64,000 nt of DNA from Saccharomycopsis phalli (Eukaryota > Ascomycota > Saccharomycetes > Ascoideales > Saccharomycopsidaceae). Positions 29,451 to 41,338 of this stretch are shown piece by piece; position 1 is the stretch's first letter; every line of letters starts with the position of its first letter. Made by a program: the position numbers and the translations under genes. The notes beneath the pieces are model-generated. The model made no database searches, had not been told where the DNA came from, and saw only the letters and a list, made by a program, of their open reading frames with translations. Where the stretch lies: contig CP073214.1 of NCBI GenBank assembly GCA_020342235.1, positions 744,001 to 808,000 of the forward strand, given 5' to 3'.

Positions 29451-32243
29451 ATGAATAACAAACCTATTTGTGTCAAGTTACGGTACTTTTCAACCGATGC
29501 CGAGTCGGGGGAAATTGTAACACTCAAGAAGGTTATCAAGGTTCTCCCTCAGGTTGTCAATGCAGACCAATTTCCACAAATCATCAAGAAGATTTTGGAC
29601 ACTGACGGTGACATTGTTTTGAAACGCAAGTCTCGAAAGAAGAAGAAGTTTGTGCATTTGAAGTCAGCGGATGATTTTAAGGCGGTCGAAGGCGCATTGA
29701 AGGTTAAGAATCACATCAAGTTGGTGGCAATTGAAAGAGATACAGTGGACAGGGTCGACTTCAACCGGTTATTTGAGGAAAAGGACTTTTATGATTTTGA
29801 TGTCAGTAAAAGCACCACTTCTACCATCCGGATACCTGTGACCGAGCAAGATGAATTGTCAAAGCCCGGTAACAAGGAGGAATGGACCAACCCTTACAGT
29901 GATATTCATCTGAAATTAATTGAGGAATTAAAGAGTTTTTTGAATGATAATTTAGTTAAGAAAGTTACTGACAAATTATCTGATGCTACAAAAGATCTTA
30001 ATGAAGTTCTCAAGTCGATTAATTTCGCTGATCTGCCTGTTCAACCCAAACATACAAACAGCTTTGACAAGGTGGTTCACCATAGATTTATATGTGACAA
30101 CTGCTATCCTAGAGGTTTAGAAACGGCTGCATCCTACATTTCTGGTGTAAGATACAAGTGTTTGGAGTGCTTCGACGTTGATCTTTGTGAGCAATGTGAA
30201 ACATCCGAAGTTTCCTTCAATGGGCATCTACCTTTCCATTCTATGGCTAAAATTAAGATACCCACCAGAGGTCCTAAACCAGGTCCTTCGATTAACTTGA
30301 ATAAAGAAGCGGGCGTTGCTTGTACACAATTTGAAAGACCAAGAGAACCACCAAAGAAACGAGAATCGAACAAATGTCCAGGTACTTTTTATCAGCCGGC
30401 TGCGGAGATCCCTCATATTATTAACAAATGTAATGTATGTTTGAGGGATATTGAACGTCAGAACAACAGTTATTATTGTTGCAATAAGTGCGACTTTGAT
30501 TTGTGTGATTCCTGTTTTCCTCAGCTTAACAACAATACTGATCATAATTTGGTGTTCTTCAAATCTGATAATGATGCTAGTGCATCAGCAGGATCACCAG
30601 CAAGTCATCAATTTGTTTATTGTAACAATTGTTTGGAGTCTAATCGGTCAAGAGACTTTATTCAGGGAACTAGAATTCACTGCTTGGAATGCGATGACTA
30701 TGATTTGTGCTATCGTTGTTTTAAAGAAAGTCCGCTGTTAAAAGATCATTTCTTTTCTCATAAGATGAAAGTAATCCCGGCACCTAGAATTGTCGGTGCC
30801 TTGACTGAGTCAAGCACTGCAAGAGATTCTCCTTCTACATTTTATCTTTGCGACTCTTGCAATTATTTCGGGATTTCTAATGCGCTTGATCACACGAGAT
30901 ACCATTGTACCGAGTGTGGATTCAATATGTGTGGCTTCTGTTTTGATGACAGGGCGCAATTTAATACTCATAGATCACATCATAAGATCGAAATGATTGA
31001 AGAGGAACGCAAGACTGCCAGCGACGGTAAAATTAACGTTCCAAAGGAGTCGAGTACTAAACGGTCCGCAGGGGAAATATTTTTAGGTGATGATCCCGAA
31101 AATGAGTTAATCGCTTTGTTTGATATGTCTACTTATTTCGAACTTTTGAGTTATTTCGCGAAGATTGAAGATGAAGATAATGCTGTCATCTTCAGAAAAC
31201 TCTGTCAATTGGTGAGTAAAAGCATGGAAATGGAAAAATCAGAGGCACTTGATTCCGATCCACTTCTGAAATCAATCTACGAGGACTCTGCCGAGTCTTG
31301 TTTGCCACCAATTGTGGAGGAACTTTCCATCGGGAAGATCACCCTTGATGACTCAGCAGCTAAAAAAAGCAATGTTACTTCTGGGATTACATCACCGGTC
31401 ATGACCCAACCGGTTCAGAGTTGTTCACTGGATACTCAAGTGTACAAACTAACCGGTCAATCAATTGAAGACTTTTCTGGTGATTCCTTTGGACAGCCAG
31501 TGCAAACTGAGGCTACCACTGAACAATCTGAGACATTGTCTGATGTGGCTCATGAACCAACTCGCGATAAAGGCAGTGCTGAGCAAACAATTGAACACAT
31601 TTCTGATGATTCATTTGGCCAACCGGTACCAGTTGAAGTGACAGATGATACGTCTGAGGCTATGCCAGCCGAACCGGTTAAGGACCACCTTGAGACGTCG
31701 TCTGAAGTAAAGCCTGAATTGCATGCGAGCGAGATGAATGCTGAACAATCAATTGAAGGCTTTTCTGATGATTCGTTTGGGCAGCCAGTACAAATTGAGG
31801 CTACTACTGAACAGTCTGAGACGCCATCTGAAGTAAAGACTAAACTGGCTGAAAGCGAAATTAATGTTGAACAATCAATTGAAGAATTTTCTGACGATTT
31901 GTTTGGACAACCAGTACCTGTTGAAGCGGGCCAGGAGGTTGGCAGTGAGATTCTATCAGGAAACTCTGAAGGGTCGCAAACCAGGGCGACCAATTCTCAG
32001 TCTACTTCGTTAATCATCTTGCCTACGCTAATGAGGGAGTCATCAATATTTATTGATGCTGAAAGCAGTTTGGGAGCGGAAGGGGCTGAGAAAGTTCCTG
32101 ACAATGATAAGGTAGACCATGCTGTCAATGAGGACCGGGCGGAAATGCTTGAGGACTATGATGTGGTGAGCTCAAATTGGGATTCGGATGTCGAGAATAT
32201 AAGCGAGGCTTACGAAATATTGGACTCTGACTTTGAGAACTAA
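29451..32243 (+). CDS. NBR1-like multi-ZZ protein, candidate selective-autophagy receptor
   Basis: A 930-residue protein. Residues 1-100 look like a PB1 domain (basic strand, then a FVHLKSADDFKAVEGAL segment like the acidic half of PB1). Four ZZ-type zinc fingers follow at about 215-263, 327-375, 391-440 and 467-515, each with C-x2-C pairs and a CxxCxxxLCxxC-like core. Residues 670-826 hold four spaced copies of a QSIExFSDDSFGQPV motif. The acidic C-terminus carries two possible Atg8-binding motifs, YDVV (903-906) and YEIL (921-924). PB1, ZZ and a C-terminal AIM together are the layout of NBR1/p62-type receptors; fission-yeast Nbr1 also has several ZZ domains. No NBR1-type FW domain was seen. 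The start at 29451 is the first ATG and follows a TATA (tatataa) about 45 bp upstream. The receptor role is inferred. Confidence 0.7.
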   Translation: MNNKPICVKLRYFSTDAESGEIVTLKKVIKVLPQVVNADQFPQIIKKILDTDGDIVLKRKSRKKKKFVHLKSADDFKAVEGALKVKNHIKLVAIERDTVDRVDFNRLFEEKDFYDFDVSKSTTSTIRIPVTEQDELSKPGNKEEWTNPYSDIHLKLIEELKSFLNDNLVKKVTDKLSDATKDLNEVLKSINFADLPVQPKHTNSFDKVVHHRFICDNCYPRGLETAASYISGVRYKCLECFDVDLCEQCETSEVSFNGHLPFHSMAKIKIPTRGPKPGPSINLNKEAGVACTQFERPREPPKKRESNKCPGTFYQPAAEIPHIINKCNVCLRDIERQNNSYYCCNKCDFDLCDSCFPQLNNNTDHNLVFFKSDNDASASAGSPASHQFVYCNNCLESNRSRDFIQGTRIHCLECDDYDLCYRCFKESPLLKDHFFSHKMKVIPAPRIVGALTESSTARDSPSTFYLCDSCNYFGISNALDHTRYHCTECGFNMCGFCFDDRAQFNTHRSHHKIEMIEEERKTASDGKINVPKESSTKRSAGEIFLGDDPENELIALFDMSTYFELLSYFAKIEDEDNAVIFRKLCQLVSKSMEMEKSEALDSDPLLKSIYEDSAESCLPPIVEELSIGKITLDDSAAKKSNVTSGITSPVMTQPVQSCSLDTQVYKLTGQSIEDFSGDSFGQPVQTEATTEQSETLSDVAHEPTRDKGSAEQTIEHISDDSFGQPVPVEVTDDTSEAMPAEPVKDHLETSSEVKPELHASEMNAEQSIEGFSDDSFGQPVQIEATTEQSETPSEVKTKLAESEINVEQSIEEFSDDLFGQPVPVEAGQEVGSEILSGNSEGSQTRATNSQSTSLIILPTLMRESSIFIDAESSLGAEGAEKVPDNDKVDHAVNEDRAEMLEDYDVVSSNWDSDVENISEAYEILDSDFEN
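31458..31928 (+). repeat. Four spaced copies of a QSIExFSDDSFGQPV coding repeat
   Basis: Copies start at 31458, 31584, 31746 and 31872, separated by variable Glu/Thr/Ser-rich linkers that are themselves similar (EATTEQSET twice). Repetition of a short acidic-hydrophobic motif suggests multiple docking sites for one partner. It is not a known named repeat to me. Confidence 0.85.
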
Positions 32244-37833: not shown

Positions 37834-38778
37834 TTATGGTAGAGCGATAGTGTTCATTAAGAATGCGTCTATTCCGGCGACATTCATCAAATTGTTATGG
37901 TTGTTGTCGTTAGAATATGGCAGGTCATTAAACAATTGGTTGATCATGTCCCACTCACCCTCATTGATCAGCGGTATGGTAACTTGATGCAAATCACACT
38001 CAGGGATACCAGCAATGAGTGGCATCGTGTCGTCGCGCGGTTCAAAGAAAGGACTATCCATGGCGTCGTCAAAATCGGGACACCCAAAGTCGAACATTGG
38101 TGCCGTAGGAGTTTCTGTGCTCATGAAATCACTAGTATTGCTGCTAATCGTGGTAATGGGCAACTGATTGTCGTCGGTTGTCCCACTGAGTGGGCTGTCA
38201 GGCTCAATAGAGCTGACTTTCAGGTGATTCATGGATCGTTCGAGGTCACAGCCCTCAATGTCCGTTACCATTTCCGGTTCAGAGATGACTGCCTGGAACT
38301 TGTTTTTGTCCAAGTTTTTTTGAATGTCTTCCATGAAGCATTTTTCATTGAACACAGCCGCGAGATCACAGCACAGATTTCTGAGCGGATGGTTGTGTTC
38401 GCCATTGACTAGAGCAATCGACCACTTGTTGGTTCTGGTGGAGTAGTTGGCCCTTATCCTGAAGGGACACTTGTCGCGTGTGTGGGCCTTTTTTTGCATC
38501 AATTTTTGCTTTGTTTGAAACGAGTCGAGCAAGCCCTGCTCTTTCAACATCAACTTTTGTTTCTTTGAAACCCTTGTTTGTCGCGTTCTCTTGAAGCTAG
38601 AGCTGTAACGGTAGCTTTTACATTTGAAGACGATTTTGTGAGTGTCGGAACGTTCAATGACAATTAAAATACCCAAGGGCATAAGCTTGTTTTGGATCCA
38701 AGATTTGATGTCCTTGCTATCATTGAACATGGGCCGTTGGTTGTTAGGCCCAAAGAGAAGATCGCTGGCGGTTATCAT
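37834..38778 (-). CDS. AFT-domain (WRKY-GCM1 fold) transcription factor, paralogue 1
   Basis: A 314-residue protein whose N-terminal region (about 20-132) matches the DNA-binding domain of yeast iron regulators Aft1/Aft2: DIKSWIQNKLMPLGILIVIERSD, then a zinc site built from C53, C104, H128 and H130 (KCPFRIRANYS ... EHNHPL). A basic insert separates the first two ligands. The C-terminal half is acidic and Ser/Pro-rich (DFGCPDFDDAMDSPFFEP), as in activation domains. It lacks the Cys-Asp-Cys motif through which Aft1/2 bind Fe-S clusters, so iron sensing of that type is doubtful. A close relative lies 1.6 kb away (40358-41338). Candida Rbf1 belongs, as I recall, to the same domain family, so I give no symbol. 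Confidence 0.8.
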   Translation of the reverse strand: MITASDLLFGPNNQRPMFNDSKDIKSWIQNKLMPLGILIVIERSDTHKIVFKCKSYRYSSSFKRTRQTRVSKKQKLMLKEQGLLDSFQTKQKLMQKKAHTRDKCPFRIRANYSTRTNKWSIALVNGEHNHPLRNLCCDLAAVFNEKCFMEDIQKNLDKNKFQAVISEPEMVTDIEGCDLERSMNHLKVSSIEPDSPLSGTTDDNQLPITTISSNTSDFMSTETPTAPMFDFGCPDFDDAMDSPFFEPRDDTMPLIAGIPECDLHQVTIPLINEGEWDMINQLFNDLPYSNDNNHNNLMNVAGIDAFLMNTIALP

Positions 38779-40357: not shown

Positions 40358-41338
40358 TTATATCACCTTTTCCTTGGACAAGCTCTTTTTTACATTGTCT
40401 ATTACGTCCGATAGTAGCTCCCGCTTTTCCTCCTCGGAGAACTTTCGCACGTCCCCCACTCCGCCCTTCTTTACAATCTTGTCTAGAATCACCCCATTCA
40501 CAAGCGAATTAAGCTCGTCAGCCTTCTCCTTTACTGTGATTTTGTCGTCAATGGTATCGTCCTTGTATTGTTGAGGGCCACTCAAACCCGGTATATCAGA
40601 TGCATTTAGTGACGCTATGGTATGGTTCAAGTCATTCAGCTCCCGCTGCTGCATGTTTGAGTTGTATAGCTGCGACGCGATTAGTGTGTAGTTTGGAGGT
40701 GCCAAAATCGTGAACACCCCTGCCCCCGACACATCATTACTTCCTGGATGTGTGGCAGCATTAACTGCAGCTGCAGCAGCGGCGGCAGCAGCTTCATTAT
40801 TTTCCGGCAGGCTATCAAAGTTACCGAGCCTGGCATGCGAAAGATCTATAGGTGTCAGGTTGTTGATAAACAGCTTATTAGGATATAGAGGATGGTTATG
40901 CTGATCATTTACTATTGAAATGTTCCACTTGCCCACTTTCTTGGAATAATTTGCTCGAATCTTGAAGCAGCATTCATTGTATCTTTTGTCATTTTTGTCA
41001 TCCAAGCTAGTCTCTTTGCCCTGGCTCAAGTCATCTAGCTCTGACTCCTTTTGGTGTTCTTTTAAAACCCCTCGGTGCCGACAACGAAACACGATCTTCT
41101 TATTATCCGACCGTTCAATCGCCACGAGAATACCTAGAGGTGCAAGCTTAGACTGAAGCCAAGGCTTTATTGCATATCTGTATGTCAATGAGGTGTTTCG
41201 AATCTCCCGGGAATTGATTTCGTCGAGACTCAATAAATCGTGCAACGGCGAAGGATTTAGCTTTTTATAATTAATCCCATCGTACGGCATCGCCTTGACG
41301 TCGAGCTTCATCTGGTCATACGGTCGTTTATTAGACAT
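40358..41338 (-). CDS. AFT-domain (WRKY-GCM1 fold) transcription factor, paralogue 2
   Basis: A 326-residue relative of the protein at 37834-38778. The DNA-binding domain at about 52-152 has KPWLQSKLAPLGILVAIERSDNKKIVFRC, with zinc ligands C86, C123 or C124, H147 and H149 (CCFKIRANYS ... DQHNHPL). The insert between the first two ligands is acidic here but basic in the other paralogue, so the two probably read DNA differently. A run of about ten alanines follows the domain. The C-terminal third is charged and helical (FSEEEKRELLSDVIDNVKKSL). No Cys-Asp-Cys iron-sensing motif was seen. The duplication is local but old, as similarity is limited to the domain. Confidence 0.8.
   Translation of the reverse strand: MSNKRPYDQMKLDVKAMPYDGINYKKLNPSPLHDLLSLDEINSREIRNTSLTYRYAIKPWLQSKLAPLGILVAIERSDNKKIVFRCRHRGVLKEHQKESELDDLSQGKETSLDDKNDKRYNECCFKIRANYSKKVGKWNISIVNDQHNHPLYPNKLFINNLTPIDLSHARLGNFDSLPENNEAAAAAAAAAVNAATHPGSNDVSGAGVFTILAPPNYTLIASQLYNSNMQQRELNDLNHTIASLNASDIPGLSGPQQYKDDTIDDKITVKEKADELNSLVNGVILDKIVKKGGVGDVRKFSEEEKRELLSDVIDNVKKSLSKEKVI

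Follow-up and report, generated by a model that had tools for sequence, protein, structure and literature searches.

The FW domain is described as a signature present in all Nbr1 proteins (PMC9233695), and a review of the family, which gives FW plus either PB1 or ZZ as its search criterion for NBR1, reports the loss of the UBA domain in most fungi (PMC9582228). According to the published accounts, ZZ domains bind cargo in Schizosaccharomyces pombe Nbr1 (SpNbr1) and in Chaetomium thermophilum Nbr1 (CtNbr1), the latter to CtApe1 (PMC9233695, PMC9582228), and a fungal Nbr1 with four ZZ domains is already on record (PMC9233695, PMC12042473). The FW domain of CtNbr1 is described as binding Ams1 via the N-terminal di-glycine of that protein. 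Saccharomyces cerevisiae is reported to have no Nbr1, and the extent to which Cvt/NVT-type targeting of hydrolases is conserved is called uncertain (PMC9233695).

In this study we analyzed a gene of the CUG-Ser yeast Saccharomycopsis phalli that lies in a window of 64,000 nucleotides, the whole stretch of DNA covered here (contig CP073214.1, positions 744,001 to 808,000). The original prediction, made from the letters, described an NBR1-like candidate receptor with a PB1-like N-terminus, four ZZ fingers and the acidic C-terminal motifs YDVV and YEIL. We directly observed the open reading frame (ORF), its ZZ fingers, its sequence relationship to SpNbr1, its motifs and its candidate partner genes. 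The reading that we favor, with a probability of roughly 0.6, is that the gene product is an NBR1-derived receptor for selective autophagy, which uses ZZ fingers for cargo, has lost a recognizable FW domain and would bring hydrolases to the vacuole via Atg8.

The coding region and its N-terminal part are as follows.

29451..32243, + strand: intact ORF of 930 amino acids encoding the NBR1-like multi-ZZ protein (table 12 translation)
29451..29741, + strand: residues 1-97, predicted beta-beta-alpha-beta-beta-alpha-beta unit, PB1-like (beta-grasp), from single-sequence AlphaFold2

Under table 12 the frame is uninterrupted, as originally predicted; an in-frame stop lies 192 bases upstream of its start, and no further in-frame ATG occurs between the two. 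CTG accounts for 6 of the 63 TTA, TTG and CTN codons in the ORF, and its translation as serine is an assumption. The alignment of the Ape1-like protein of this genome to S. cerevisiae Ape1 agrees weakly with this assumption: of that protein's four CTG codons, three are covered and stand opposite Val, Lys and Ser rather than Leu. No relatives of the ORF were found in the IMG/VR and GTDB contigs, as expected for a eukaryotic gene. Elsewhere in the window, an AFT-type transcription-factor domain (PF08731) was detected in two separate ORFs, 37834-38778 and 40358-41338, both on the - strand, close together and beside an HSP70 gene.

The protein contains 12 CxxC pairs arranged as four groups of three, that is, three per finger. 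The Pfam cut-offs are 21.4 bits for ZZ, 26 for C1_2 and 27.5 for ZZ_ADA2.

30072..30260, + strand: ZZ1, residues 208-270; Pfam ZZ at 34.4 bits; SpNbr1, KCMF1 and p62 matches
30414..30566, + strand: ZZ2, residues 322-372, degenerate; ZZ at 19.5 bits and C1_2 at 22.7 bits, both below cut-off
30606..30779, + strand: ZZ3, residues 386-443; Pfam ZZ at 33.5 bits; first half of the co-linear match to SpNbr1 ZZ1-ZZ2
30834..31004, + strand: ZZ4, residues 462-518; ZZ_ADA2 at 20.4 and ZZ at 10.5 bits, both below cut-off; second half of the co-linear SpNbr1 match

The four predicted ZZ-type fingers are real, with ZZ1 and ZZ3 passing the Pfam cut-off and ZZ2 and ZZ4 degenerate and below it. ZZ1 keeps both the FDVDLC pattern and an acidic residue within the first CxxC (CDNC), acidic positions that we take to be those of the p62-type N-terminus-binding pocket. 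ZZ2 and ZZ3 keep DxD but carry Asn in their first CxxC; in ZZ4 the DxD is lost (GFNMC), and the cysteine pairs, the histidines and the first acidic residue remain. In the 14.1-Mb genome the ORF encodes the only multi-ZZ protein detected. A genome-wide search with PF00569 gave four matches, two of them in this ORF; the other two lie in what appear, from sequence and domain content, to be Ada2-like and Rsc8/Swi3-like proteins, and the idea that the genome encodes another ZZ receptor was therefore rejected. The finger number is within the one to four of the NBR1 family, and the fingers are related to those of known Nbr1.

The nearest relatives of the protein in the PDB are SpNbr1 and KCMF1. In phmmer searches, the full protein matched SpNbr1 first (the Ams1 fusion 7dd9, whole-sequence E-value 4.2e-5) and KCMF1 second (2.7e-4), and the ZZ2-ZZ4 stretch again matched SpNbr1 first (4.8e-6, co-linear over two consecutive fingers), with KCMF1 at 1e-4. 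For ZZ1, SpNbr1 also led by whole-sequence E-value (8.9e-5 versus 2.7e-4), whereas the best single-domain E-value was better for KCMF1 (2.7e-4) than for SpNbr1 (0.019); the small lead of SpNbr1 arises in part because two of its fingers are matched. In the reverse direction, a search of the genome with SpNbr1 ZZ1-ZZ2 at E-values up to 10 returned three matches, all of them in this ORF (1.2e-6, 0.04 and 0.06). No RING, HECT or other catalytic domain exceeded the Pfam cut-off in the whole protein, and zf-RING_4, IBR and FYVE appeared in fragments only below cut-off, over the cysteines of ZZ2 and ZZ4. UBA gave no Pfam match in the whole protein or in fragments, which is expected for fungi and hence not decisive. 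The PDB and Pfam comparisons did not clearly mark the protein as an orthologue of a ZZ protein from outside autophagy. The predicted NBR1-type identity holds in that SpNbr1 is the best PDB match and reciprocal matches fall in this ORF only, but it is incomplete in that KCMF1 is a close second and FW was not found. Taken together, a relationship of the 930-aa protein to Nbr1 is supported; judged by sequence, it is a ZZ-related, NBR1-like protein and, by strict definition, no full NBR1.

The original prediction of an NBR1-type layout had overlooked that FW, the family signature, is absent at the sequence level. PF16158 (FW; NBR1, N_BRCA1_IG) gave no match in Pfam searches of the whole protein at E-values up to 1 or of fragments at up to 10. 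Tryptophan occurs in the protein only at positions 145 and 910, and none lies at 146-909. The region that follows the fingers contains one further predicted element.

31125..31283, + strand: residues 559-611, weakly predicted helices with no beta sandwich seen (AlphaFold2, single sequence, pLDDT 43, low confidence)

Residues 525-660 as a whole were predicted as helical at pLDDT 43 in a model too poor to use, and residues 661-930 are acidic and repetitive. Both AlphaFold2 predictions, of the N-terminus and of residues 525-660, were single-sequence runs without an alignment of yeast orthologues. A divergent FW-like immunoglobulin fold, as in Atg19, may hide in the protein. Elsewhere in the genome, one PF16158 match (G000:C2:301974-302093, 21.6 bits against a cut-off of 28) was rejected as chance because it contains two in-frame TAG codons and spans a frame of 41 amino acids; ARAGORN found no tRNA at locus L005. 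The Ams1 ORF of this genome starts with MTGN, with no di-glycine after Met, and the ligand of FW would therefore be missing as well; this single observation fits the loss of FW.

The predicted PB1-like N-terminus was not confirmed by sequence. Pfam gave no PB1 match in the whole protein or in fragments, a genome search with PF00564 at E-values up to 1 gave five matches that did not include this ORF, and none of the eight PDB matches of residues 1-100 (phmmer, E-values up to 10) was a PB1 domain. A home-made profile built from four PB1 sequences of the same genome scored 3.0 bits on residues 1-111, a score reached by 287 of 2000 shuffles, with an hhalign probability of 0.2%; seven of 128 sequence windows from five proteins beat residues 1-111 with this profile, and six of these seven came from the NBR1-like protein itself, scoring up to 6.2 bits. 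PB1 as proven by sequence was accordingly rejected. The structural check was divided: the elements of the N-terminal model follow the order of PB1, but the structure match is weak and the comparison did not distinguish the model from other beta-grasp folds, which it also resembles. The model suggests a PB1 domain at the N-terminus. The unit carries a basic SRKKKK loop, which presumably sits where type I PB1 domains have the acidic OPCA loop. Two different proteins of the same genome (L010 and L012) have PB1 by PF00564 and are possible PB1 partners; they look like CBS-repeat plus PB1 proteins.

The C-terminal tail is strongly acidic, with a net charge of -52 over residues 625-930, and contains four repeat units and two candidate Atg8-interacting motifs (AIMs).

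31458..31505, + strand: repeat unit 1, QSIEDFSGDSFGQPVQ, residues 670-685
31584..31631, + strand: repeat unit 2, QTIEHISDDSFGQPVP, residues 712-727
31746..31793, + strand: repeat unit 3, QSIEGFSDDSFGQPVQ, residues 766-781
31872..31919, + strand: repeat unit 4, QSIEEFSDDLFGQPVP, residues 808-823
32157..32168, + strand: YDVV, residues 903-906, candidate Atg8-interacting motif (acidic [WFY]xx[ILV] rule)
32211..32222, + strand: YEIL, residues 921-924, candidate Atg8-interacting motif (same rule)

The repeat (31458-31919) is a 16-residue acidic motif, QSIE-FSDDSFGQPV, in four units. Its cores are identical at 11-14 of 16 positions in pairwise comparison, with 2-5 synonymous codon differences per pair, and the 20 residues that follow each core agree at 2-5 positions in five of the six pairs and at 11 in the remaining one. 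The cores are more alike than the flanks, and the repeat core therefore seems to have been kept while the flanks drifted.

YDVV at 903 and YEIL at 921 are present where they had been predicted, both within the last 28 residues of the protein. Our AIM rule, [WFY]xx[ILV] with at least three acidic and no basic flank residues, was set when the sequence was already known, and under it, when the 281-residue tail was shuffled 20,000 times, at least two AIM-like motifs fell within the last 35 residues in 0.135% of cases. At least two occurred anywhere in that tail in 7.4% of shuffles, and when just the last 40 residues were shuffled, the figure was 3.9%. Motifs of the YxxV and YxxL types make weaker AIMs than W- or F-type motifs. 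When all window ORFs of at least 150 amino acids were compared, overlapping frames included, only one of 32 had an AIM-like motif in its last 35 residues, namely the NBR1-like ORF.

These motifs bear on the strongest of the alternatives, according to which the protein is an NBR1 homologue that uses the ESCRT route, like SpNbr1 in the NVT pathway, with C-terminal Yxx[VL] motifs that would not be Atg8 binders. We consider this improbable, though the best match is SpNbr1, whose pathway is described as needing ESCRT and not the conventional autophagy machinery (PMC9233695, PMC8997447). Against it stand the pair of acidic AIM-like motifs close to the C-terminus of the protein, the sole such case among the 32 ORFs, and published accounts of a C. 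thermophilum Nbr1 with an LIR (PMC9233695) and of a Beauveria bassiana Nbr1 with an AIM that binds Atg8 (PMC12042473).

The genome encodes candidate partners for the receptor that we favor. Genes for Atg8 and Atg11 are present. A 524-aa Ape1-like M18 peptidase is nearest to vacuolar aminopeptidase 1, the match setting in after roughly 65 residues, and a second, Ape4-like M18 peptidase has its nearest match, from residue 8, in the aspartyl aminopeptidase part of the SpNbr1 fusion 7dde. One Ams1-type GH38 protein is encoded as well. The vacuolar delivery of hydrolases that had been proposed thus has candidate cargo of the Ape1, Ape4 and Ams1 types in the same genome, together with Atg8 and Atg11. 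The Ape4-like M18 peptidase gene, a possible cargo gene (L007, G000:C3:739284-740660), lies on the same contig 3.3 kb before the start of the window and about 33 kb from the receptor gene; this closeness is probably a coincidence. PF12744 (ATG19) gave no match in the genome at E-values up to 10, but it gave none in the control genomes either; in the 930-aa protein there was no match at up to 1.

The set of encoded hydrolases is also relevant to a somewhat less probable alternative, namely an NBR1 homologue that mainly carries peroxisomes, aggregates or another organelle instead of vacuolar hydrolases. The Nbr1 proteins of Sordaria and Beauveria are described as acting in pexophagy (PMC9582228, PMC12042473), but SpNbr1, the best match, is reported to carry hydrolases by its ZZ domains (PMC8997447), and Ape1-, Ape4- and Ams1-like proteins are all found in this genome. 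Least probable of the three is a multi-ZZ adaptor outside autophagy, such as a KCMF1-like adaptor for N-degrons or a ubiquitin ligase, with C-terminal motifs due to chance. In its favor, KCMF1 comes second among the PDB matches and is ahead of SpNbr1 by single-domain E-value for ZZ1, and PB1 and FW are unrecognized by sequence. Against it, the catalytic domains of such a system are missing above cut-off, the co-linear two-finger match goes to SpNbr1, and the tail motifs also count.

For the NBR1-derived autophagy receptor, we infer each binding step and the route by analogy. At least one ZZ finger, most likely ZZ1 and ZZ3, would bind oligomeric cytosolic Ape1, Ape4 and Ams1 by their N-termini and surfaces, as modeled on the ZZ domains of S. 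pombe and Chaetomium Nbr1. Both the PB1-like unit at the N-terminus and the cargo, being multimeric, would contribute to clustering. The acidic YDVV and YEIL motifs would bind Atg8 and the tail would engage the C-terminal claw-like region of Atg11; the cargo would then be enclosed and brought to the vacuole. Of the readings considered, this one, with ZZ fingers holding cargo and a tail for Atg8, draws on the evidence in full. CtNbr1 is reported not to bind CtApe4, CtApe2 or CtLap2 (PMC9233695); cargo lists therefore vary among fungi, which counts against the analogy.

A more far-reaching and doubtful idea is that the Nbr1 of CUG-Ser yeasts discarded FW, placed all hydrolase recognition, including that of Ams1, on the ZZ fingers and gained a disordered tail whose four-fold QSIE-FSDDSFGQPV repeat offers the autophagy scaffold a multivalent docking site, a path opposite to that of Saccharomyces. 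If this were true, an FW-less Nbr1 would stand beside a ZZ-less Atg19, and neither cargo-binding domain of NBR1 would be indispensable. Likewise, if FW is truly gone and Ams1 is still delivered, another domain must have taken over its recognition, which has been proposed for S. pombe. Our literature search, conducted mostly by title, found no Nbr1-like protein of a CUG-Ser yeast or without FW, and a 2010 perspective on fungal homologues may cover one.

Of the known proteins, KCMF1, a ZZ-containing E3 partner, resembles the yeast protein in its ZZ finger and is its second-best PDB match, but the yeast protein has four ZZ fingers and no E3-type domain over cut-off, and its architecture differs from that of KCMF1. 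SpNbr1, the NVT receptor, is the best sequence match with two tandem ZZ fingers; unlike the yeast protein with its four, it is described as having three ZZ domains (PMC8997447), and its FW is reported as present but degenerate and its route as ESCRT (PMC9233695). S. pombe is also said to have no Ape1 homologue (PMC9233695), whereas this genome encodes an Ape1-like protein. CtNbr1 shares PB1 (here PB1-like), four ZZ domains, an LIR (here candidate motifs) and a genome with Ape1 and Ams1 (PMC9233695). PB1, four ZZ domains and an LIR are thus already combined in CtNbr1 as described (PMC9233695), and the layout itself is therefore not new. CtNbr1 has FW, which was not found in the yeast protein; as far as recognizable domains go, the missing FW is the variation on the Chaetomium-type layout. 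Atg19/Atg34 of S. cerevisiae are alike in the proposed role as hydrolase receptors, the PB1-like start and the C-terminal LIR (candidate motifs in the yeast protein), as the review describes them (PMC9582228). Atg19 is described there as having lost ZZ and kept an FW-like Ams1-binding domain (PMC9582228), the reverse of the yeast protein, which has no PF12744 match. A budding yeast that has both a multi-ZZ Nbr1-like protein and enzymes of the Ape1, Ape4 and Ams1 types permits a direct test of which domain carries which cargo, and it would stand between the S. pombe-type and S. cerevisiae-type models.
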